Assembly (NCBI RefSeq): GCF_001593005.1
Contig: NZ_LQZQ01000002.1
Location: forward strand, 62,001 to 126,000
Source of the DNA: Roseivirga ehrenbergii
GTDB lineage: Bacteria > Bacteroidota > Bacteroidia > Cytophagales > Cyclobacteriaceae
DNA length: 64,000 nt
Direction of reading: 5' to 3'
Made by a program: the position numbers and the translations under genes. The notes under the pieces are model-generated. The model made no database searches, was not told the DNA's origin, and saw nothing but the letters and a program-made list of their open reading frames with translations. Within the stretch, counting starts at the first letter, position 1. Every line of letters starts with the position of its first letter. Shown here piece by piece: positions 3,515 to 44,309 of the stretch.

Positions 3515-5476
3515 ATGCTACAACTAGAAATTCTAAAAAAGCATACTAGTTTTGTTTGGGGTATAATTCTGCTTTTACTCCTTCATTCGAGTTTCGCTTT
3601 ACATGCCCAAGAGGTAGTCACAATCGATTCACCTTTATTTGATTTTTCGGTCAATAAAGGGAAATCACTACTCGTTTTTGAGGATACTACTGAAGCACTC
3701 ACCATAAATGATATTATTGAAAACCCACCATTCAATAATCAAGTAACTGGTCCAAATAATATCACTGGGGTTTACTGGATCAAACTAAGCCTACAAAACA
3801 CTACAGGTAATGATTTAGAAATTATTGCCGAAGGCTTTAAATCGATCAACAGTCAGCTCTATCAGGTATTAGAAAATGGAGAAATTTTTACGGCTCCATA
3901 TGGATCGTTTCAAAAAAAGTCAGGCCTTAACCCTGGCGATAGTCGGGCGCATGTTTCGTTTATTCTGAAGCAGGGAATTACTCAAGACATTTACTTTAGA
4001 GTTCATGGCAGAGCTTTCAAGGGCAACTTTATGGATAGCAAAACCTTCCGCACCAAAAAAACACAGGCTCAAGTGCAGGATTTATTATTCTATGGTGCTT
4101 GCCTAATTTTCGTGATTTACTCACTCATACAATTTGGAGTTTATCGATACATGCCATATTTATGGCTGGCAATGTTCGCACTAGGAATGGGCATGTATGC
4201 CTTCTCTGTGCAAAACTACTTTGTAGACTGGATTCTACCCAACGCTCCAAAAACCGGACTCAACTTTACCATGCCTTGGTCTCAGTTTGGCCTTTTAGGA
4301 ATGTTGCTTTTAGCCATTAGCTTTCTTGAGTTAAAAAGAAAATTTCCTTTTTGGTATAAAGTATTTATTGGCCTGATTATTCTGACAGTTTTACGCACTG
4401 CAGTCGGTGTGGTGCTTACGGCAGTATACCAAAATTATGGACTCATGACCGACATGAGTATTAAGCTGCTTATGATTGACATTGCTTTATTTCATTTCAT
4501 GCTTTTTGCCCTTTGGAAAAAGGTAGAAAAAAGCAGAAAGGTGTTTTTAGTGGGTTTAATCATTTTCGGGTTAACTCTTATAATTGCTTCACTAACATGG
4601 AAGTACATTTTTGTATCTAAGTCAGTTGTGCTTTTATACACTAGCTCTTTGGGCTCTTTAGCGCAGGTACTTATTTTTTCTATTGCCATTGGAATTAGGA
4701 TGAGACAACACGAGAAAGAAAAAAACTTGGCACTGAATAGGCTGAACATTGTTCTGAATGAACAGAATAAAAAAATTGAGAAAGAGGTAACTGAAAGAAC
4801 AAAAGAAATAGAAGATCAGAAAATAGTTTTACAAGAACGAAATGAACGAATAGAAACCCTTTTCAAAGAAATTCACCATAGAGTAAAAAACAACTTACAA
4901 CTGATTTCAAGTTTGCTCAACATGCAACAAGAATGGAGCGGAACAGAAGACTCTGCCAAAGCTATTGAAGAAAGTAGAAGTAGAGTTGTGGCCATGTCGA
5001 TGATTCATCAGTTTTTGTATCGAACAGACGATATCGCTACTATTGATTTTAGAGATTATGTAATTGAGTTGGCGGAAAAAATCAATTCCATTCAGGCTGA
5101 AAAAATCGACTACCACCTTTCGGTAGACTTTGACTGCCATCCGAATTTTGATTTAGACACCTCAATTTCACTCGGTTTAATTTTAAATGAGTTGTTAACC
5201 AATTCTTATAAACATGCTATCAGCAAAAATAATCGCCTAGAAATTCTGCTTAAACTTCACTTTAGAAAGGATGGAATGTTTAACTTAACATGTCAGGACA
5301 ATGGAGCTCCTTTGCCTCTTCCTTTTGAGCAAATGGCAAAAAAAGGTTTTGGCCTTAAGTTAGCTTCTCGACTAACAAAGCAATTACATGGAAGCCTTAG
5401 TTATAGCTATAACTCGGGAAATACTTTTACGATTGTATTTGCTGATGAGAAAAAGAGAATGACACTTGTTGATTAA
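3515..5476 (+). CDS. 7TMR-DISM sensor histidine kinase (HisKA_2 type)
   Basis: A membrane sensor kinase of 653 aa. Residues 1-32 are a signal peptide ending in ALHAQE. About 35-165 form an extracellular beta domain of the 7TMR-DISMED2 type, about 190-400 hold seven hydrophobic helices (7TMR-DISM), and a coiled coil (400-445) leads to the kinase. The dimerisation/phosphoacceptor box is EIHHRVKNNLQLISSLLNMQ near 450, typical of HisKA_2, and the HATPase domain has LILNELLTNSYKHA and CQDNGAPLPL. It starts a three-gene operon (gaps of 6 and 2 nt) with a LuxR-type regulator and a second HisKA_2 kinase. DISM sensors often bind carbohydrate-like ligands; the ligand here is unknown. Confidence 0.9.
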   Translation: MLQLEILKKHTSFVWGIILLLLLHSSFALHAQEVVTIDSPLFDFSVNKGKSLLVFEDTTEALTINDIIENPPFNNQVTGPNNITGVYWIKLSLQNTTGNDLEIIAEGFKSINSQLYQVLENGEIFTAPYGSFQKKSGLNPGDSRAHVSFILKQGITQDIYFRVHGRAFKGNFMDSKTFRTKKTQAQVQDLLFYGACLIFVIYSLIQFGVYRYMPYLWLAMFALGMGMYAFSVQNYFVDWILPNAPKTGLNFTMPWSQFGLLGMLLLAISFLELKRKFPFWYKVFIGLIILTVLRTAVGVVLTAVYQNYGLMTDMSIKLLMIDIALFHFMLFALWKKVEKSRKVFLVGLIIFGLTLIIASLTWKYIFVSKSVVLLYTSSLGSLAQVLIFSIAIGIRMRQHEKEKNLALNRLNIVLNEQNKKIEKEVTERTKEIEDQKIVLQERNERIETLFKEIHHRVKNNLQLISSLLNMQQEWSGTEDSAKAIEESRSRVVAMSMIHQFLYRTDDIATIDFRDYVIELAEKINSIQAEKIDYHLSVDFDCHPNFDLDTSISLGLILNELLTNSYKHAISKNNRLEILLKLHFRKDGMFNLTCQDNGAPLPLPFEQMAKKGFGLKLASRLTKQLHGSLSYSYNSGNTFTIVFADEKKRMTLVD

Positions 5477-5482
5477 GATATC

Positions 5483-6094
5483 ATGAAGAAGCGGATACTA
5501 GTTGTAGATGATGAAGTGATTATTGCAGATGACCTTTGCAGTACTTTAAATAAACTTGGTTATGATGCCTTGGAACCAGCCCTTTCTTATAAACAAGCCG
5601 TAGAAGTATTGGCAAACGAGTCAATAGACATGGCTATTCTAGATATTAATTTAGGAGGAAGAAAAACAGGAATGGATGTAGCCGAATATATTCAAGAGCA
5701 TTTAAATATTCCTTTTATTTATCTTTCATCACATACTGATTCTAAAACTTTAGAGTTAGCCAAAAACACAATGCCCTATGCTTATTTGGTTAAACCGTAT
5801 GGTGCAACGGACGTAATGACGGCTATTGAAATAGCTTTTAACAACCAAAAACGCTATTCTGAAACTAAGACAACAGCAGATTCAGAACATATTGGTAACT
5901 TAACAGCAATGGAAAAAGTGGTAATTAGAAAAATAGCTGAAAACCTTTCTACAAAAGAAATTGCCGAGCAACTCTGCGTTAGTGAAAGCACCATTAAGAA
6001 TCACCGACACAATATCTGTGTAAAGTTAGATTTGCCATCAGGAACCCACTCACTTCTCAAATGGGTAATGGAGAATAATAAGTATATTCAATAA
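5483..6094 (+). CDS. LuxR-type response regulator
   Basis: A 203-aa DNA-binding response regulator. The receiver (1-120) has the acidic pair D9-D10, phosphoacceptor D54 (MAILDINLGG) and the lysine of YLVKPYG. The C-terminal LuxR/GerE helix-turn-helix contains LSTKEIAEQLCVSESTIKNH, then RHNICVKL. It sits between two HisKA_2 kinases with gaps of 6 and 2 nt, so either could be its partner. Its recognition helix (STIKNHRHNICVKL) is identical to that of the regulator starting at 8700, so both probably bind the same DNA site; the TAGACC-N4-GGTCTA repeats just downstream are the obvious candidate. Confidence 0.92.
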   Translation: MKKRILVVDDEVIIADDLCSTLNKLGYDALEPALSYKQAVEVLANESIDMAILDINLGGRKTGMDVAEYIQEHLNIPFIYLSSHTDSKTLELAKNTMPYAYLVKPYGATDVMTAIEIAFNNQKRYSETKTTADSEHIGNLTAMEKVVIRKIAENLSTKEIAEQLCVSESTIKNHRHNICVKLDLPSGTHSLLKWVMENNKYIQ

Positions 6095-6096
6095 TT

Positions 6097-8139
6097 ATGA
6101 CCTCTCCATTCCACAGTTATTTTATCCGTCATATTACGATCATTACCATATTTATACTGATACCATTAGGTCTTCTTGCTCAAGATAGGCCAAAAGCAAA
6201 AATAGACAGTTTAGAGCAGGTTATTGCTCAAACCAAGTCGGAAGACAGCCTAAGCCAATTATTTACTGCCCAAATTGAGTTAGCTAAGGAAATGGAAGAC
6301 TTTGCTAAACTGGCTGAAATAGAGCTTAAACTTGCCAAGGTTTCAAGCTACGATGGAATTGAAATGCAAAGACATGCTCAAAATGCACTAAACTACTTTC
6401 GTGCTCAACAAGATACAACGAACATAATTGACGCTACTTATCAGTTAGCTTATTCAAAACAACTTCAAAACGACTATGACAGCACCCTTCTTTTTGCCAA
6501 AGAAGTGGTTCATTTAGCCGAAAAATCACAAAATACAGTATCTCTTATTAGTGGGCGATTGATGTTATCGTCCGTGCATAATCATTTGGGTCAATACCCA
6601 GAATCATTACAAGAATTGAATAAGAGTAAGATTTTGGCAGAAAATACCCCAGATAACAAATCAGTAATTACGGACATCCTGAACAGAGAGTCGTTTATAT
6701 ATTATTCGTTGGGTGAATATGATGAGAGTGCTGATAGGATCAGCCAGATTATTGAAATATTAAAACCAGAAGGAGATGCAAGGAGATTAAACATTTGGTC
6801 GAATAATTTAGCAAGCGTTTATTCCCTTTGTAACTGCGTTTCCTTTGATAAAAGGAAGGCCGTGATTAAGGAATCAATCAACTACGCGAAACAAGCCAAT
6901 TTCACCTATGGCAAAGCCTTCGCCTATAAACATTTGGCCGATACTTATAGAGATGCAAGTCAGTATGACAGCACCAAATATTATTTAGAACAGATAGAAG
7001 TATTACTTCCTGAAATCAACAAACCCGATTTTACCGGATTGGTGAGTGTGGCGCAAGGCTCGTATTGGAGTTACGTAGGTAACGACCCAAGGGCCATTCC
7101 CTACTTTATAAAAGGCTACAATATTTGGAAATCACTGGGCAAGAAAAAAGACCAGATGGATATTGCATGGATTTTAAATGACTTATATCAAAAGCAAAAA
7201 GACTACGCTAACGCTCATAAATACCTCAATACATATGTGGCATTAAAAGACTCTTTATTTAGCGAAGAGAAGATCAGAGAAGTTAAAGAGCTTGAGTTAG
7301 CATACGATTTCAGACAAAAACAGATGACCGACAGCCTCAAGAATGCCGAACGCCTTTTAATGTCAGAATATGAGACCACGCTTCAGAAACGGTCAAAACG
7401 GATGATTCTATTCGTGGGAGTTGCTATCCTCATTGTGGCCATAATCATTTATTATGGCTTTATTAAACAAAAAAAACTAAGTCAGTTGCTTCAAGTTAAA
7501 AGCGACCAAGTAGAAAGCGAACTTCATCAAAAAGAGCTGCTTCTAACAGAAATTCATCATAGAGTAAAAAATAACTTTCAGATCCTTTCTAGCTTATTAG
7601 AGTTACAAGCAAAAGGAGTGGATGACCAAGCTACAAAGGATTTAATATCAGAAGGGAAAAGCAGAGTAAGATCAATGGCGCTCATCCATAATCAACTTTA
7701 TGATAATGACAGTCTAACTATCCAGTTGGCTGGGTATCTTCAAAACCTTATCAGTGAAATTCAGAAATCTTTTGAGGGGCAAGCTTCCGAGATTGAAATG
7801 GATGTAGATCCTAATTACACGCTCGACATCGACAATATGGTTCCCCTTGGACTCATTGCAAACGAGCTTGTCACCAATGCTTTTAAATATGCTACGAAAG
7901 GCGGCAACCAATTAAAGTTAGAAGTAAGCCTTTACGAAAAGGATGGACAGAGCGTGTTCGTTTTCAAAGATAACGGACCAGGATTGCCTTCAAGTTTTGA
8001 TGTGAAAACAGCAAAAAGTACGGGGATTTGGCTCATTAGTCGTTTGGCGCTCCAGCTACACGGCCACTATGAATACGAATATGATAACGGTGCGGTATTT
8101 AAAATTTACTTTACACAAAGTGAGTTTGTAAACGCTTAA
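6097..8139 (+). CDS. TPR-containing sensor histidine kinase (HisKA_2 type)
   Basis: A 680-aa sensor kinase. An N-terminal hydrophobic export segment ends at LLAQD (about residue 30). Residues about 40-400 are helical tetratricopeptide-like repeats facing the periplasm (for example TKYYLEQIEVLLPE and AHKYLNTYVALKDSL). A single membrane helix lies near 430-450 (MILFVGVAILIVAIIIYYGF). The HisKA_2 box EIHHRVKNNFQILSSLLELQ is near 485, and the HATPase domain has LGLIANELVTNAFKYA and FKDNGPGLP. Third gene of the operon after the DISM kinase and the LuxR regulator. The signal sensed by the repeat domain is unknown. Confidence 0.9.
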   Translation: MTSPFHSYFIRHITIITIFILIPLGLLAQDRPKAKIDSLEQVIAQTKSEDSLSQLFTAQIELAKEMEDFAKLAEIELKLAKVSSYDGIEMQRHAQNALNYFRAQQDTTNIIDATYQLAYSKQLQNDYDSTLLFAKEVVHLAEKSQNTVSLISGRLMLSSVHNHLGQYPESLQELNKSKILAENTPDNKSVITDILNRESFIYYSLGEYDESADRISQIIEILKPEGDARRLNIWSNNLASVYSLCNCVSFDKRKAVIKESINYAKQANFTYGKAFAYKHLADTYRDASQYDSTKYYLEQIEVLLPEINKPDFTGLVSVAQGSYWSYVGNDPRAIPYFIKGYNIWKSLGKKKDQMDIAWILNDLYQKQKDYANAHKYLNTYVALKDSLFSEEKIREVKELELAYDFRQKQMTDSLKNAERLLMSEYETTLQKRSKRMILFVGVAILIVAIIIYYGFIKQKKLSQLLQVKSDQVESELHQKELLLTEIHHRVKNNFQILSSLLELQAKGVDDQATKDLISEGKSRVRSMALIHNQLYDNDSLTIQLAGYLQNLISEIQKSFEGQASEIEMDVDPNYTLDIDNMVPLGLIANELVTNAFKYATKGGNQLKLEVSLYEKDGQSVFVFKDNGPGLPSSFDVKTAKSTGIWLISRLALQLHGHYEYEYDNGAVFKIYFTQSEFVNA

Positions 8140-8170: not shown

Positions 8171-8217
8171 TAAACCTTGTGGTCTATTTACCCCTCTACT
8201 GCTAGTCAATAGCTTTG
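8171..8217 (+). promoter_or_regulatory. Activated promoter 1: inverted repeat plus -7 box
   Basis: TAAACC-TTGT-GGTCTA (8171-8186) is an inverted repeat with one arm mismatch. Exactly 23 nt later comes the -7 box TAGCTTTG (8210-8217). No good TTTG -33 box exists; the repeat overlaps that zone and is centred about 43 bp before the expected start, the place for a class II-type activator. First of four copies in 1.4 kb with the same spacing. The -7 box ends only 5 nt before the ATG of the next gene. Confidence 0.7.
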
Positions 8218-8222
8218 CAATC

Positions 8223-8609
8223 ATGCTAGGAGCCAACACCTTGTCGGTAAATAGAAAAGTTCTTGTGGTGGAAAATGAAATCATTATTGCCGATGATATC
8301 TCCATGACAATTGCCAGTATGGGCTTCTACCCTTTAGACCCTGTTTTTGATTATAACAGTGCCGTAACATCTTACAACACCTACAAACCCGACTTGGTAA
8401 TTATTGATATTCGCCTTCAAGGAAAAAAGACAGGAATTGATTTTGCAGAATGGATTCGTACTCATTTCAGTACGCCAATAATCTATATTACTGTTTTGGG
8501 AAGTAAAATAATCAGACACCAAGCCGAGCAAACCCAACCAACGGCCTATCTAGTAAAACCATTTGTAAATCAAGACATTATTGATGCGGTAAATCTAGCG
8601 TTGACCTAA
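8223..8609 (+). CDS. Single-domain response regulator (receiver only)
   Basis: A 128-aa receiver without output domain. Counting from ATG 8223 the phosphoacceptor is D62 (LVIIDIRLQG), with the conserved lysine in AYLVKPF. The usual acidic pair is replaced by E17-N18 in VVENE, which may change metal binding or phosphorylation. Two starts are possible: ATG 8223, only 5 nt after the -7 box and so nearly leaderless, or TTG 8241, preceded by AGGAG at 8228-8232. Such stand-alone receivers often act as phosphate sinks or relay intermediates; the setting next to two kinases fits, but this is inference. Confidence 0.85.
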   Translation: MLGANTLSVNRKVLVVENEIIIADDISMTIASMGFYPLDPVFDYNSAVTSYNTYKPDLVIIDIRLQGKKTGIDFAEWIRTHFSTPIIYITVLGSKIIRHQAEQTQPTAYLVKPFVNQDIIDAVNLALT

Positions 8610-8615
8610 CAAATT

Positions 8616-8662
8616 TAGACCTAAAGGTCTATTTACTGCTTTATAATCTAATTGTAGTTTTA
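8616..8662 (+). promoter_or_regulatory. Activated promoter 2: inverted repeat plus -7 box
   Basis: Perfect inverted repeat TAGACC-TAAA-GGTCTA (8616-8631), then 23 nt, then TAGTTTTA (8655-8662) in place of TAnnTTTG. It starts 7 nt after the stop of the receiver gene and would drive the LuxR-type regulator at 8700 with a leader of about 30 nt. If that regulator binds the repeat, this is an autoregulatory loop. Confidence 0.75.
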
Positions 8663-8699: not shown

Positions 8700-9329
8700 T
8701 TGAAGAGACTTACCGTGAATCCGAAAAGAATACTAATCGTTGAAGATAATTCCGAATTAGCCGACTGCCTGTCCGAAGTGTTACAGTCATGTGGTTACCA
8801 AACATGCCCTGTCGCTAAATCTTATGACGAGGCTATCTCGTATTTTGAAATCTATAACCCCGACCTTGTTACTTTAGATATTCATATTGAGGGTGAGCGC
8901 ACGGGGATTGATGTTGCAAAATACATTAAGCAAAACTCCAATATTCCTTTCATCTATCTTTCGGGCTCAATCGACCGATCATCTATTTCATTGGTTAAAG
9001 CTACCAACCCATTTGCTTTTTTGGTAAAACCATATGAGTTCCTTTCACTCGAAACCACTTTGAAATCGGCTTTCAATAGCACCAAGCCTACACTCAAAAC
9101 TACTCAGGTTGAGAAAAGAAAGCTTCCCAAATTTACACCTATGGAAAAAGTGATTTTAAAGGAGGTTGCAAACGGTCTTACTTCACAAAAAATAGCATCT
9201 AGGCTTGACTTAAGTGCTAGCACTATTAAAAACCACAGACATAACATCTGTGTAAAGCTAAAATTACCCAGAACTACTCATTCGCTCTTGAACTGGGCGC
9301 TTGAAAATAAAAGACAATTGAACCTCTGA
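8700..9329 (+). CDS. LuxR-type response regulator, second copy
   Basis: A 209-aa regulator, paralogue of the one at 5483. The receiver has E15-D16, phosphoacceptor D60 (LVTLDIHIEG) and lysine in FLVKPYE. The LuxR helix-turn-helix has LTSQKIASRLDLSASTIKNH followed by RHNICVKLKL; the recognition part matches the first regulator exactly. The frame opens with TTG at 8700, with AAGGA 9 nt upstream, and no ATG lies before the receiver core. It has its own inverted-repeat promoter, and two further copies of that promoter follow the gene. Confidence 0.9.
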   Translation: MKRLTVNPKRILIVEDNSELADCLSEVLQSCGYQTCPVAKSYDEAISYFEIYNPDLVTLDIHIEGERTGIDVAKYIKQNSNIPFIYLSGSIDRSSISLVKATNPFAFLVKPYEFLSLETTLKSAFNSTKPTLKTTQVEKRKLPKFTPMEKVILKEVANGLTSQKIASRLDLSASTIKNHRHNICVKLKLPRTTHSLLNWALENKRQLNL

Positions 9330-9384
9330 TTGAGCTTTAAAAATTAGTAATATCTTCTTTTTAATTGTTCGAAAAGAATGAATT

Positions 9385-9431
9385 TAGACCATGAGGTCTA
9401 TTTACCAACGTTCATAAAGATTTTAGCTTTG
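9385..9431 (+). promoter_or_regulatory. Activated promoter 3: inverted repeat plus -7 box (for sRNA 1)
   Basis: Perfect-arm inverted repeat TAGACC-ATGA-GGTCTA (9385-9400), then 23 nt, then the consensus -7 box TAGCTTTG (9424-9431). No protein gene follows within 370 bp. Predicted transcription start near 9437. Confidence 0.75.
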
Positions 9432-9436
9432 AAAAG

Positions 9437-9545
9437 AAAAGTCTTAGGGCTAATACAATTCAAATTGAGGATGTGGGTGTTCTTGTTTGAGCTGCTTAGA
9501 ACAGGGAAACTCAACAGGTTTCCCTGTTAGGCAGTTTCCCCTTAT
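9437..9545 (+). ncRNA. Predicted small RNA 1 under response-regulator control
   Basis: Inferred from the consensus promoter at 9385-9431 and strong secondary structure. AACAGGGAAAC (9500-9510) and GTTTCCCTGTT (9518-9528) form a perfect 11-bp stem with a 7-nt loop, extended by CTGC (9492-9495) with GCAG (9531-9534). A second GTTTCCC (9534-9540) could pair with the same GGGAAAC. The 3' end is not clear: the hairpin has no proper T run, so the transcript may be processed or may read on to the terminator at 9709-9739. It contains TTGAGG, also found in sRNA 2, and a 19-codon frame at 9471-9530 (MWVFLFELLRTGKLNRFPC). I do not recognise a known family. Confidence 0.45.
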
Positions 9546-9559
9546 TACGAATAGCAAAT

Positions 9560-9606
9560 TAGACCTAAAGGTCTATTTAATTAGGAGGATTAAGGACTTA
9601 GCTTTA
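9560..9606 (+). promoter_or_regulatory. Activated promoter 4: inverted repeat plus -7 box (for sRNA 2)
   Basis: Perfect inverted repeat TAGACC-TAAA-GGTCTA (9560-9575), identical to copy 2, then 23 nt, then TAGCTTTA (9599-9606). Predicted start near 9612. It lies 15-20 nt after the end of the sRNA 1 structures. Confidence 0.75.
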
Positions 9607-9611
9607 TAAAG

Positions 9612-9739
9612 TAGATAGTTCATTTAGTAAAAATTAAGGAGTGAACTACTAATAAAGAAATATACAATTTCGGTAGACGACTATTTGGTTGAGGTATAGT
9701 CAATCTACGAAGCCACCATACGGGTGGCTTCTTTTGTTT
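9612..9739 (+). ncRNA. Predicted small RNA 2 under response-regulator control
   Basis: A transcript of about 128 nt is bounded by promoter 4 and a clear terminator. Stem A: TAGTTCA (9616-9622) with TGAACTA (9642-9648), whose loop carries AAGGAG. Stem B: GTAGA-c-GACTAT (9673-9684) with ATAGTC-aa-TCTAC (9696-9708), whose loop carries TTGAGG. Stem C is the terminator. No open frame with a credible start is present. The arrangement (sensor kinases, LuxR-type regulators, activated sRNAs with unpaired GGA/AGG) recalls GacS/GacA-RsmXYZ of gammaproteobacteria, but no CsrA gene is in view. The family is unknown to me. Confidence 0.6.
9709..9739 (+). terminator. Intrinsic terminator of sRNA 2
   Basis: GAAGCCACC (9709-9717), loop ATAC with one G, then GGTGGCTTC (9723-9731) form a perfect 9-bp stem followed by TTTTGTTT. 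It is 460 bp or more from any upstream coding region on this strand except the regulator at 8700, which argues for a non-coding transcript. Confidence 0.9.
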
Positions 9740-9762
9740 ATGGCCATCTGGTTTTTCGATAA

Positions 9763-9778
9763 TGGCAAAGGTCTTGCA
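9763..9778 (+). promoter_or_regulatory. Sigma54 (-24/-12) promoter of the GH3-family gene
   Basis: TGGCAAAGGTCTTGCA differs from the sigma54 consensus TGGCACR-N4-TTGCW at one core position. GG (9764-9765) and GC (9776-9777) are separated by exactly 10 nt. Expected start near 9789, 14 nt before the ATG at 9803. It follows the sRNA 2 terminator directly, so the gene is transcribed separately from the sRNAs. A sigma54 activator gene lies 2.7 kb downstream. Confidence 0.7.
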
Positions 9779-9802
9779 ATACTGAATTCATTAATAACAT
9801 AA

Positions 9803-11338
9803 ATGAATCAAATGCCACTTTTAGGAAAGCTAATAAAGAAATCTATTGATGTTGCCAACGAACTTTTTGAAGAGGATAAAAACCCAGTTGAAGCACAGTC
9901 TGAAGCACTAAGAAACCTACTAGAATCGGCCAAGAACACCGATTTCGGAAGAAGATATCAGTTTAATGAAATACTTAAATCAGAAGATGTTGCCAAGTCG
10001 TTCCGAGTATCCGTTCCCTGTTTTGATTATCACCGAATGTTTGGGGAATGGTGGCATAAAACTGTGGAGGGAATTCCCGATGTAACTTGGCCGGGTAGCC
10101 CAGAATACTTTGCACTTAGTTCAGGAACCACAGGATCTAAAAGCAAACGCATTCCCGTTACAAAAGAAATGATCGAAGCCATTCGAAGCACTGGAATTAA
10201 ACAAGTAATGAGCCTATCTGATTACGACTTGCCAGATGAATTTTTCCAGAAAGGAATACTCATGTTAGGTAGCAGCACAGAACTTGAAGAGCGAAATGGA
10301 CATCTAGAAGGAGAAATAAGCGGAATAAGCGCCAGCAATATTCCATTTTGGTTTAAAGGATACTATAAACCGGGTGAAGAAATTGCTAAAATTCAAGATT
10401 GGGATGAACGTGTTCAGCGAATTGCTGAACAAGCACCCAATTGGGATATTGGTGCTCTTTCTGGAATTCCCTCTTGGATTGAGCTCATGCTTAAAAAGGT
10501 TATAGAACATAATAATTTAAAAAATATACATGAAATCTGGCCATCTCTGTCTGTATTCACAACAGGCGGGGTTCCTTTTGAGCCTCACCAAGAAAGCTTC
10601 GAAAAACTATTGGATCACCCTCTCCTCTATTTAGATACTTACTTGGCTTCTGAAGGCTTTATTGCATTGCAAGTGAGGCCGAATGAAGACATGTCGATGC
10701 AATTGGCCTACGATGGAGGCATTTACTTTGAGTTTATACCTTTCCAGCCCGAATATTTTGACGAAAATGGAGCACCATTTGAAGACGCCCCAGCCCTAAG
10801 TTTGGCTCAAGTGGAAGAAGGTAATGAGTATGCAATGTTGATCTCCACCGTTAGTGGCGCTTGGCGTTATAGTATTGGCGACACTATAAAATTCACCAAT
10901 AAAGAAAAAGCAGAAATTAAGATTACAGGCAGAACGAAATTTTTTCTGAATGTAGTGGGCTCACAACTATCTGTAAACAAAATGACAGACGCTATTCAAA
11001 AGCTTGAAGAAGAATATAAAATGTCTATTTCGGAATTCACCGTAGCGGCTGTAAAACATGATGGTGAGTTTTACCACCAGTGGGTAATTGGAAGTGGAAA
11101 TGAAAGTAATACAGACGAAGAAGCTCTAGCTCGTACTTTAGATGAAGCGCTTAAAAATGTGAATAAAAACTATGGTGTAGCTAGAAGTAAAGCCTTAAAA
11201 GGGGTTAAGCTCAAATTAGCAAGTCCAGAAACCTTTTACGATTGGGCAGAACAGACCAAGAAAAAAGGCGGACAAATTAAAATTCCTCAAATGATGAGTG
11301 AATCAGAAATGAAGGCTTTTCTAGAGTTTATTTCATGA
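9803..11338 (+). CDS. GH3-family acyl-adenylate-forming protein
   Basis: A 511-aa homologue of the GH3 family, known in plants as acyl-acid-amido synthetases (adenylation of a carboxylic acid, then transfer to an amino acid). The ATP-binding motif SSGTTGSKSKRIPVT lies near residue 105, and the family C-terminal region contains YSIGDTIKFTNKEKAEIKIT followed by GRTKFFLNVVGSQLSV. No signal peptide or membrane helix, so it is cytoplasmic. Bacterial members are widespread in Bacteroidota but I know of no established substrate. It has a sigma54-type promoter and overlaps the convergent metallopeptidase gene by 6 nt. Confidence 0.85.
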   Translation: MNQMPLLGKLIKKSIDVANELFEEDKNPVEAQSEALRNLLESAKNTDFGRRYQFNEILKSEDVAKSFRVSVPCFDYHRMFGEWWHKTVEGIPDVTWPGSPEYFALSSGTTGSKSKRIPVTKEMIEAIRSTGIKQVMSLSDYDLPDEFFQKGILMLGSSTELEERNGHLEGEISGISASNIPFWFKGYYKPGEEIAKIQDWDERVQRIAEQAPNWDIGALSGIPSWIELMLKKVIEHNNLKNIHEIWPSLSVFTTGGVPFEPHQESFEKLLDHPLLYLDTYLASEGFIALQVRPNEDMSMQLAYDGGIYFEFIPFQPEYFDENGAPFEDAPALSLAQVEEGNEYAMLISTVSGAWRYSIGDTIKFTNKEKAEIKITGRTKFFLNVVGSQLSVNKMTDAIQKLEEEYKMSISEFTVAAVKHDGEFYHQWVIGSGNESNTDEEALARTLDEALKNVNKNYGVARSKALKGVKLKLASPETFYDWAEQTKKKGGQIKIPQMMSESEMKAFLEFIS

Positions 11339-12170: not shown

Positions 12171-12527
12171 ATGAAAGAAACGAAGAGCGTGGCAATTGTG
12201 GATGATGAAGAGTTTATCGGACACATGGTGTCAAAATTTTTACAAAACGAAGGATTAACAACTGTATACTTTGATAGAATGCTTGCTGCTAAGGAAGACT
12301 TTTTAAAAAAAACCTATGACTACTACTTTTTGGATTTGAACCTTCCAGATGGAACCGGTTTCGATTTAGTACCGATCATCCAGAAAAGGGCTAAAAATGC
12401 CAAAATCATCATCATTAGTGCGCATGATGGCCACGAAGAGTTGAGTAGAGCTAAATCATTTGGTGTTCATGGTTTTATTCATAAGCCTTTCAATAAGCAG
12501 GCAATTCTAAATACGATAACAAAATAG
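12171..12527 (+). CDS. Single-domain response regulator
   Basis: A 118-aa receiver: acidic pair in IVDDEEF, phosphoacceptor D in YYFLDLNLPDGTG, and lysine in FIHKPFN; no output domain. One nucleotide separates its stop from the start of the sigma54 activator, so the two are translated from one mRNA. It may share phosphate with that activator and with the PAS kinase at 14756. A weak -7 box TAGACTTTA lies about 70 bp upstream. Confidence 0.88.
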   Translation: MKETKSVAIVDDEEFIGHMVSKFLQNEGLTTVYFDRMLAAKEDFLKKTYDYYFLDLNLPDGTGFDLVPIIQKRAKNAKIIIISAHDGHEELSRAKSFGVHGFIHKPFNKQAILNTITK

Positions 12528-12528
12528 G

Positions 12529-13902
12529 ATGGAGAAGATTTTAATTATTGATGATGATCAGGACATATGCCTGCTCCTTCAAAAATACCTTACAAAAAAA
12601 AGTTATGAGGTTTTTATTACTTACAGTGGAAAGGAAGCTGAAGAATGGCTAAAGAAAAACCAAGTCGATTTGGTGCTTTGCGACTTCAAACTCCCTGATT
12701 ACTCTGGGCTCGAAATTCTTCAGAAAATAAAAATTATTGACCCCAACATTCAGGTCATAATTATTACTGGCTACTCTGATGTGCGCGTTGCAGTTGAGGC
12801 CCTTAAGAGAGGTGCTTTTGAATATGTAACTAAGCCCTTATATCCGGATGAAATACTCCTTACCATTCAGAATGCCTTAAATCAGAAGTTAGAAGAAAAT
12901 CACCCAAGAACCCGAATCAAGAAAAAGCAAGTCAGGAACGAATTTGTGGAAGGTGTGAGTCACGCTGCACAAACCGTAAAAAAACATATCGAACTGATCG
13001 CCCCCACTGATATGTCTGTAATTATTATGGGAGAAACGGGAATTGGGAAAGAGTTTGTTGCCACTGCTATTCATGAAAAAAGTAAAAGAGCCGATCAGCC
13101 ATTCCAAGCCGTTGACTGTGGTGCATTACCAAAAGATTTAGCTGGATCAGAACTTTTTGGACATCAGAAAGGAGCATTTACTGGAGCAATTGCCGATAAA
13201 AAAGGCTGTTTCGAATTGGCCAATGGAGGAACTCTCTTCTTAGATGAGGTAGGAAACCTGACGTACGAAAACCAAGTGAAACTTTTACGAGTACTTCAAG
13301 AAAGAAAAGTAAAACCCATTGGCGCCAATAAAGAGGTAGAAATCGATGTTCGCTTATTAGTGGCTACAAACGAAAACCTAAAAGAAATGGTAAAGAAGGG
13401 CACTTTTCGTGAAGACATTTATCACAGACTGAATGAGTTTAAAATTGAAGTTCCTCCTTTAAGAGAAAGACCCGATGATATTATTATTTATGCGGAGCAC
13501 TTCTTGCTTAAGGCCGATCGCCAGTTAGAAAAAGATGTGAAAGGTTTTACCGAGGATACAAAAGAAAAATTGAGAGAATACCCTTGGCACGGAAATCTAC
13601 GAGAACTGGGTAATGTGATCAAAAGAGCGGTTTTGCTTTGTCAAGGCGACCTTATTGAAACTATCCACCTGCCACAAGAAATTGTGACTCCAGATTTATC
13701 AGAAGCAGATTCTTCACTACAAGTATCCTTTAATGGGGAAATGCCTACAGATCTGAAATCGGTAGCTGAAGCGGCAGAAAAGAGGGCAATTATTGAGGTG
13801 CTAAAACGCACTAAAAATAATAAGAGTAAAACGGCAGACTTACTTAAAGTAGATAGGAAAACGCTTTACAATAAGCTAAAAGCTTACGGAATAAGTACTT
13901 GA
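12529..13902 (+). CDS. NtrC-family sigma54-dependent response regulator
   Basis: A 457-aa transcription activator for RNA polymerase with sigma54. Receiver about 1-120 (ILIIDDDQD, LVLCDFKLPDYSG, VTKPLYP). AAA+ domain about 150-385 with Walker A GETGIGKE, the sigma54-contacting loop GAFTGA, Walker B GGTLFLDEVG and the GNLRELGNVI sensor helix. A Fis-type helix-turn-helix closes the protein (NNKSKTADLLKVDRKTLYNK). Paired with the receiver protein in front and probably with the PAS kinase 850 bp downstream. Likely targets are the nearby -24/-12 promoters at 9763, 14645, 16274, 16996 and 19286. Confidence 0.96.
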   Translation: MEKILIIDDDQDICLLLQKYLTKKSYEVFITYSGKEAEEWLKKNQVDLVLCDFKLPDYSGLEILQKIKIIDPNIQVIIITGYSDVRVAVEALKRGAFEYVTKPLYPDEILLTIQNALNQKLEENHPRTRIKKKQVRNEFVEGVSHAAQTVKKHIELIAPTDMSVIIMGETGIGKEFVATAIHEKSKRADQPFQAVDCGALPKDLAGSELFGHQKGAFTGAIADKKGCFELANGGTLFLDEVGNLTYENQVKLLRVLQERKVKPIGANKEVEIDVRLLVATNENLKEMVKKGTFREDIYHRLNEFKIEVPPLRERPDDIIIYAEHFLLKADRQLEKDVKGFTEDTKEKLREYPWHGNLRELGNVIKRAVLLCQGDLIETIHLPQEIVTPDLSEADSSLQVSFNGEMPTDLKSVAEAAEKRAIIEVLKRTKNNKSKTADLLKVDRKTLYNKLKAYGIST

Positions 13903-44082: not shown

Positions 44083-44090
44083 TACATTTG
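44083..44090 (+). promoter_or_regulatory. -7 box of the cobalamin transport operon
   Basis: TACATTTG is a perfect TAnnTTTG that ends just before the 5' end of the cobalamin riboswitch, so the whole aptamer is inside the transcript (start near 44096). Confidence 0.55.
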
Positions 44091-44092
44091 TG

Positions 44093-44266
44093 CTACCGCA
44101 AGGGTTTCCTGAAAGCTTCGGTTTTCGGAATTAAAAGGGAATCGGGTGTAAATCCCGGACAGTCCCAGCTGCTGTAATCCTATAAAAAAGTGTATCGCAC
44201 TTTGCCACTGTTTCCAAATTCGAAACGGGAAGGCGCAATACACTAGGAAAGTCAGAAGACCTGCCA
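44093..44266 (+). ncRNA. Cobalamin (B12) riboswitch
   Basis: An adenosylcobalamin-type aptamer. Diagnostic pieces in order: GGGAATCGGGTGTAAATCCCG (conserved core near 44138-44158), GACAGTCCCAGCTGCTGTAA, GCCACTG (44204-44210), GGGAAGGC (44227-44234) and the B12 box AGTCAGAAGACCTGCC (44250-44265). Downstream, CCCT/AGGG around the ribosome-binding region GAGGAAGG (about 44294-44301) suggests translational control of the first gene. When B12 is plentiful it would repress the six-gene uptake operon. Confidence 0.95.
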
Positions 44267-44309
44267 TTGCAAAGTTCAACTAAACCACCCTCTGAGGAAG
44301 GGCAATAGC

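Follow-up and report, generated by a model that had tools for sequence, protein, structure and literature searches.

The stretch between a LuxR-type regulator gene and a GH3-family gene of the marine bacterium Roseivirga ehrenbergii carries two putative promoters with no protein gene behind them. This raises the question of what they transcribe and what the products do. We addressed it in the window, by which we mean the whole 64-kb stretch of the R. ehrenbergii genome (G000) that was analysed, and in related genomes.

Two-component genes and regulator boxes

According to Pfam, the locus encodes on the forward (+) strand a sensor kinase with 7TMR-DISM, HisKA_2 and HATPase_c domains (3515..5476), a response regulator with receiver and GerE domains (LuxR-type, 5483..6094), a second sensor kinase with TPR, HisKA_2 and HATPase_c domains (6097..8139), a receiver-only response regulator (8223..8609) and a second LuxR-type regulator with receiver and GerE domains (8700..9329). 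The next protein gene, 3' of the putative RNAs, encodes a GH3-family protein (9803..11338, +; Pfam). Within the gap of 9330-9802 the largest same-strand open reading frame spans 50 aa (9378-9530), its first codon lying ahead of the point where the first RNA is predicted to start.

Four copies of the box TAGACC-N4-GGTCTA-TTTA, all on the + strand, have 0-1 mismatches; each of the other sites among the 36 listed for the 4.24 Mb genome carries 2 or 3, so that no further copy comes as close. One copy with a single mismatch precedes the receiver-only gene (8171..8190). Exact copies precede the LuxR-type regulator gene (8616..8635) and the predicted RNAs sRNA1 (9385..9404) and sRNA2 (9560..9579). 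The last two boxes head the gap, in agreement with the first-pass annotation, which had seen two of four promoters without a protein gene. A motif TAnnTTT(G/A) follows every box at exactly 19 nt (8210-8217, 8655-8662, TAGCTTTG at 9424-9431 and TAGCTTTA at 9599-9606). In Flavobacterium, one study describes TAnnTTTG as the sigmaA -7 element, placed at -12 to -5 (PMC9723704). Because of this placing, starts are predicted near 9436 and 9611, at most one base from those previously proposed (9437 and 9612).

The arrangement recurs in relatives. The window and 29 loci of relatives gave 23 rows with 0-1 mismatches, representing 21 distinct boxes since two rows are reverse readings, and in 18 of these the distance to the -7 box is exactly 19 nt. 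Three deviate, namely L093:4222, L099:7199 (with TTACTTTG at the right place) and L106:6333. The genes 3' of the boxes encode receivers and regulators and, in G007 and G009, also long proteins (L108:7154, L109:7786, L093:3996, L094:9639). We considered the long reading frames as kinases and rejected this, as Pfam on their first 395-415 residues returned no kinase domain. The matches obtained were to NHL, FG-GAP or, weakly, CopC, so these are taken as surface or secreted proteins rather than kinases. This suggests that the regulator may also control surface or secreted proteins in G007 and G009.

Box and fixed spacing together have the look of a regulator-activated promoter set, the binding protein being a matter of inference. 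The HisKA_2-kinase/LuxR-type circuit would then regulate itself, with two small RNAs among its outputs: a phosphorylated regulator, most likely the one encoded at 8700-9329, would bind TAGACC-N4-GGTCTA beside the core of sigmaA promoters and activate transcription of the receiver-only gene, its own gene, sRNA1 and sRNA2.

The GH3 gene is presumably a transcription unit of its own. Read against the -24/-12 consensus of sigma54 promoters, the sequence contains a sigma54-like element (TGGCAAAGGTCTTGCAA, 9763..9779, +) after the sRNA2 terminator and before the gene. Two other species have a similar element, and the -12 GC is found in 3/3. At 12171-13902 of the window, the gene of a receiver-only protein precedes that of an NtrC-type sigma54 activator (receiver, Sigma54_activat and HTH_8; Pfam). 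The NtrC-type protein is a candidate activator of the sigma54-like promoters described here.

The two predicted RNAs behind the boxes

Both RNAs are predicted to be structured, as the first-pass annotation had it. sRNA1 (9436..9545, +) consists of a 5' stem with the loop GUGGGU and a long terminator-like hairpin, and its fold exceeds that of shuffled sequences (z -3.05 for 9437-9550 and -3.46 for 9437-9545). sRNA2 (9611..9739, +) consists of a 5' hairpin and a conserved 3' module, with z -5.35 against shuffles for 9612-9739. The module contains a stem (9679-9684 paired with 9696-9701, +), supported by covariation, whose apical loop holds GGTTGAGGT (9687-9695). It ends in an intrinsic terminator (9709..9739, +) of 9 pairs, 6 of them G-C, followed by TTTTGTTT; this terminator, too, had been noted correctly. 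We consider it very probable that sRNA2 exists as an RNA element and probable that it is under control of the regulator.

sRNA1 was found in three species only among 288 sequences (1.34 Mb): R. ehrenbergii, R. seohaensis (G005) and R. echinicomitans (G014). All three keep the GUGGGU-loop stem and the long terminal hairpin, with compensating changes judged by eye. The same three species carry sRNA2 as a stand-alone RNA, and the sequence of its 5' hairpin differs in each. The two RNAs are not alike, so that the description as twins did not hold. The hexamer TTGAGG proposed as a common seed is indeed present in both and in sRNA2 is predicted to lie in the apical loop, where it is nearly invariant among module copies. 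In sRNA1 it is largely within a predicted stem and is replaced by TTCAAG in R. echinicomitans, which argues against a common seed. By itself the shared hexamer is weak evidence for a common function.

A different relation between the RNAs concerns the terminal loop of sRNA1, CUCAAC, which is complementary to GUUGAG of sRNA2 in R. ehrenbergii and R. seohaensis, not in R. echinicomitans. Such a match is expected by chance with a probability of 0.0017 for a 9-nt loop and 0.044 for the whole RNA. We regard a kissing pair between the two RNAs as a lead only.

It might be asked whether sRNA1 and sRNA2 are two RNAs at all, or a single RNA of ~300 nt with an internal promoter, functioning either as a unit or as the GH3 leader. 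The sRNA1 terminator is weak in R. ehrenbergii, where UUUCCCCUUAUU follows the stem and provides a poor U-tract, so read-through into sRNA2 is possible. In R. seohaensis only the sRNA1 box is intact, the one preceding sRNA2 having decayed, as a single transcript would allow. However, in R. echinicomitans the sRNA1 hairpin is immediately succeeded by a run of T5, and in R. seohaensis a T6 run begins a few nt beyond the hairpin, the strong terminator of sRNA2 closes the RNA before GH3, and the GH3 gene has its own sigma54-like promoter in three species. We therefore consider a single transcript very unlikely and treat the RNAs as separate.

The 3' module of sRNA2 in Roseivirga

The module comprises the last 70 nt of sRNA2. 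We searched 147 genomes with a covariance model built from 10 module copies; 33 candidates were scored per genome under strict filters, so weak copies may be missed. The seed was an alignment with a hand-given structure in which two copies (L094 and L099) are partly misaligned. All 20 listed matches with E <= 1.2e-5 fall within the genus Roseivirga. The next one (L137 in G057) lies outside the genus and has TTTGGTTGAGGT before a different terminator. The listed matches outside the genus above about 1e-4 (L138-L140, L142, L143) look like chance terminators and were rejected.

The 20 copies (19 distinct) come from 11 genomes, aligned from 20 chosen sources; the module occurs in named records of five Roseivirga species and of two metagenome bins. 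Compensatory changes in relatives, which the first-pass annotation had named as a check, are present: 11 of 15 pairs show two-sided change and 97.9% of cells are paired, counts that lean to the favourable side because the model alignment was fitted to the structure. In the controls, none of 500 shuffles was as high on any of five measures, and partners that were slid along the alignment paired in 31-53%. The loop is conserved along with the structure, GGTTGAG occurring in 18/20 copies and GGTTGAGG in 16/20; the two copies lacking the loop motif are L107 and L158. In L110 the same loop sits inside an entirely different stem. In a further copy, found in G007 (L093, 7677-7870), an insertion of >100 nt interrupts the stem.

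A conserved exposed motif and a covarying structure are thus common to several loci, the features of a multi-locus sRNA family. Judged by comparative sequence analysis, the sRNA2 module is such a family in Roseivirga, which a reading of one stretch could not reveal. cmscan against 4227 Rfam families returned no family at the gathering score for the sRNA region; at a relaxed threshold there were six weak matches with unrelated names, none of RsmY/RsmZ/CsrB type. Our preferred reading is that these RNAs form a new sRNA family of Bacteroidota whose members share a seed in the loop and which is connected, in this locus, to a HisKA_2/LuxR-type system.

A near full-length match to the regulator was found in 9 of 99 genomes (43-100% identity, E <= 2.2e-48), and seven of the nine have the module at the regulator locus. 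It is part of a predicted stand-alone sRNA in the three species named above and of an operon 3' UTR in four genomes: G009 and G007 have it behind a LuxR-type regulator gene (in G007 as the insertion-split copy), G018 and G012 behind receiver-only genes. Around the regulator genes of G006 and G015, the stretch searched yielded no module. A correctly spaced box stands directly upstream of the transcription unit with the module in G000, G014, G009, G007 and G018; in G012 the box has 1 mismatch and the -7 box is imperfect.

The module often follows an open reading frame. Taking the 20 model matches and the split copy together, 14 of 21 copies start <=110 nt after a same-strand open reading frame of >=80 aa (ORF calls, some of which may not be genes), three of them at the stop codon. 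Seven of the 14 lie 3' of a PorP/SprF-OmpA-type gene, recognised by shared C-termini and confirmed by Pfam in all four of those submitted; a further copy is located after the gene of a protein that bears a type IX sorting tail. The window genome itself has a copy after a PorP/SprF-OmpA gene (G000:C52).

These positions are what one would expect of a 3'-end cassette, a stabilising stem with a terminator that protects or ends transcripts without activity in trans, the stand-alone sRNA2 being a by-product of a duplicated promoter. Such a cassette would have no need of a near-invariant loop upstream of the terminator, though, and the loop motif is kept where the terminator differs. Moreover, in three species the module is carried by an independent RNA that has a 5' hairpin to itself, and a second sRNA carrying the loop, described below, is intergenic. 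A role in cis only is hence unlikely in our view. The module at the end of sRNA2, in which GGUUGAGG(U) is exposed in the loop of a stem and a terminator comes next, recurs in Roseivirga in 3' UTRs and in predicted stand-alone sRNAs under other promoters.

GGTTGAGGT also occurs upstream of terminators other than that of the module, in other RNAs. One is the second stand-alone sRNA, likewise predicted, which has a nearly invariant 36-nt body GTGAAGTTGATGGTTATTTATCTATTTGGTTGAGGT and terminator arms that co-vary (12 genomes aligned). By pattern it is present in 13/19 genus genomes, the copy of the window genome being L262 around 4729 (G000:C50:220719), and its terminator type also follows the motif in G012 and G016. 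Its promoter has TGG and TTG at the sigma54 -24/-12 spacing in 12/12 aligned rows. The -12 dinucleotide is GC in 4/12, GT in 7/12 and GA in 1/12, and we call the promoter sigma54-like only because GC is limited to these four. This sRNA has the block GUUGAUGG. It also shares GTTGATGG...GGTTGAGGT with several modules of the sRNA2 type, which points to a shared ancestry or a shared role in pairing.

A third carrier is an element in a FecR 3' UTR with GGTTGAGGTTGAGG and its own terminator (L263 around 7060, G000:C3:215061); six congeners have a similar one (Pfam on one). In the window genome a clear terminator follows at least 4 of 39 GGTTGAGGT sites, namely those of sRNA2, C50, C52 and C3, with 7 sites unread. 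A separate count gave a terminator after the motif at 4/30 sites vs 180/6000 random positions, two of the four being unconvincing as terminators. Counts of the motif with a T-run had a poor reversed-pattern control and are left out as proof. The body pattern GATGGNTATT...GGTTGAGG is found in 14/19 genus genomes and in 7/276 others, the reversed control giving 3 matches in 295. Among the seven matches outside the genus only L269 (G229) has an evident terminator. In this copy, from another genus of the family, GGTTGAGG lies inside the terminator loop, after GTTGATGGTTATT. We also considered a REP-like or uptake-sequence nature of the motif and rejected it, since it has few copies and shows no enrichment.

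Relation to known systems and proposed action of the loop

To our knowledge, few sRNAs have been described in Bacteroidota outside Bacteroides. Our literature search, which took in a minority of subscription papers and preprints, found no prior report of a response-regulator-driven sRNA in Bacteroidota/Cytophagales or of Roseivirga sRNAs. As far as searched, the system is ordinary in kind, with regulated sRNAs and sibling families, and new in sequence, phylum context and wiring.

The first-pass annotation likened the layout to GacS/GacA-RsmYZ. In Pseudomonas, GacS/GacA is a two-component system whose LuxR-type regulator activates the small structured RNAs RsmY and RsmZ. The likeness extends to a two-component system, a LuxR-type regulator (here the presumed binder) and regulator-box promoters heading small structured non-coding RNAs. 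However, sRNA1 and sRNA2 are not alike, and the box here adjoins the core promoter, unlike the usual position of the GacA site. CsrA (PF02599) was found in 0/39 genomes, the window genome included, with E. coli, B. subtilis and T. maritima positive as controls, so this is not a strict GacA-RsmYZ-CsrA system. The Qrr sRNAs of Vibrio are siblings with a common pairing core under sigma54. They resemble the RNAs found here in these respects, compared by description and Rfam alone, whereas the type of promoter varies among the Roseivirga siblings, some of which lie in 3' UTRs.

Closer by phylum are FopS and GibS of Bacteroides thetaiotaomicron, which PMC11697453 describes as multicopy sRNAs with one conserved pairing sequence and a terminator hairpin, having intergenic and 3'-UTR members. 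The seed of FopS is a single-stranded 5' stretch, and FopS represses susC mRNAs, an effect antagonised by its partner RbpB, an RRM_1 protein (PMC11697453). The Roseivirga RNAs are similarly multicopy, intergenic or in 3' UTRs, with a common conserved sequence and a terminator. In contrast to FopS as characterised there, they hold the motif in an apical loop and are tied to a two-component box, a comparison made by description and Rfam alone. cmscan gave no FopS/GibS match against the 4227 families, which may not include a FopS model. In Flavobacterium psychrophilum, Rfp36 is an sRNA under sigma54 in the expression cluster of a gliding operon that holds sprF, according to the sections available of PMC9723704. 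Set side by side by description, the likeness is a Bacteroidota sRNA, sigma54 and a connection to sprF, but those sections describe no two-component box for Rfp sRNAs.

How might the loop act? An exposed loop that hardly varies, on RNAs that differ in stem, terminator and promoter, is best explained as a pairing seed, or else as a protein site. The module would most likely act in trans, base-pairing through its loop, and RNAs from several signalling routes would thus hit overlapping mRNAs. On balance we favour trans action by the loop, with some reservation. The complement of the motif, ACCTCAACC, is not enriched in the window genome (39 sites vs 51 for the reversed pattern, 9-nt search). The contexts of 29 of the 39 sites were read: two are module copies, and two sites lie within 50 nt of a start codon (L258 at +15 and L254 at +33). 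Targets near start codons, suggested earlier for the complement of TTGAGG, thus did not emerge from this search.

The lack of an enriched pairing site would also suit protein titration, in which the GGUUGAGG loop is the site of a non-CsrA RNA-binding protein and sRNA2 and its siblings are decoys, functionally like RsmY/Z. The loop is kept while the surrounding stem changes and recurs in different RNA contexts, as a protein site might. A candidate class exists as well: RRM_1 is found in 4/19 genus genomes, namely the three species with stand-alone sRNA2, the window genome among them, and G006 (L286, L284, L285, L287). Against titration, RRM_1 was not found in the other 15/19, many of them motif carriers, the CsrA search was negative as described, and a decoy would be expected to have more than a single motif in each RNA. 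We judge titration fairly unlikely. The reading we incline to, if cautiously, is a sensor circuit driving sRNA1 and sRNA2, with the sRNA2 loop module reused genus-wide and acting in trans by pairing. Boxes, fixed spacing, module, covariation, conserved loop and several genomic carriers are present in the sequences themselves.

A more speculative extension, which we find possible and rather doubtful, makes one nine-base loop, GGUUGAGGU, a common currency. The two-component system, a sigma54 system and the mRNAs of PorP/SprF (gliding/type IX secretion) and FecR (anti-sigma) genes would each release an RNA with this loop, and surface and envelope signals would converge on one target set. In two species the co-expressed sRNA1 (loop CUCAAC) might serve as an antagonist. 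A short exposed loop sequence may be a regulatory tag shared by small RNAs and mRNA ends. If the favoured reading is true, a two-component system is linked to RNA output in Bacteroidota, and a single seed is used by stand-alone sRNAs as well as by 3' UTRs. Three elements, the box, the promoter spacing and the loop with the seed, are then defined and directly testable.

As a separate observation, the window contains a cobalamin riboswitch at 44085-44282 (Rfam, 104 bits).
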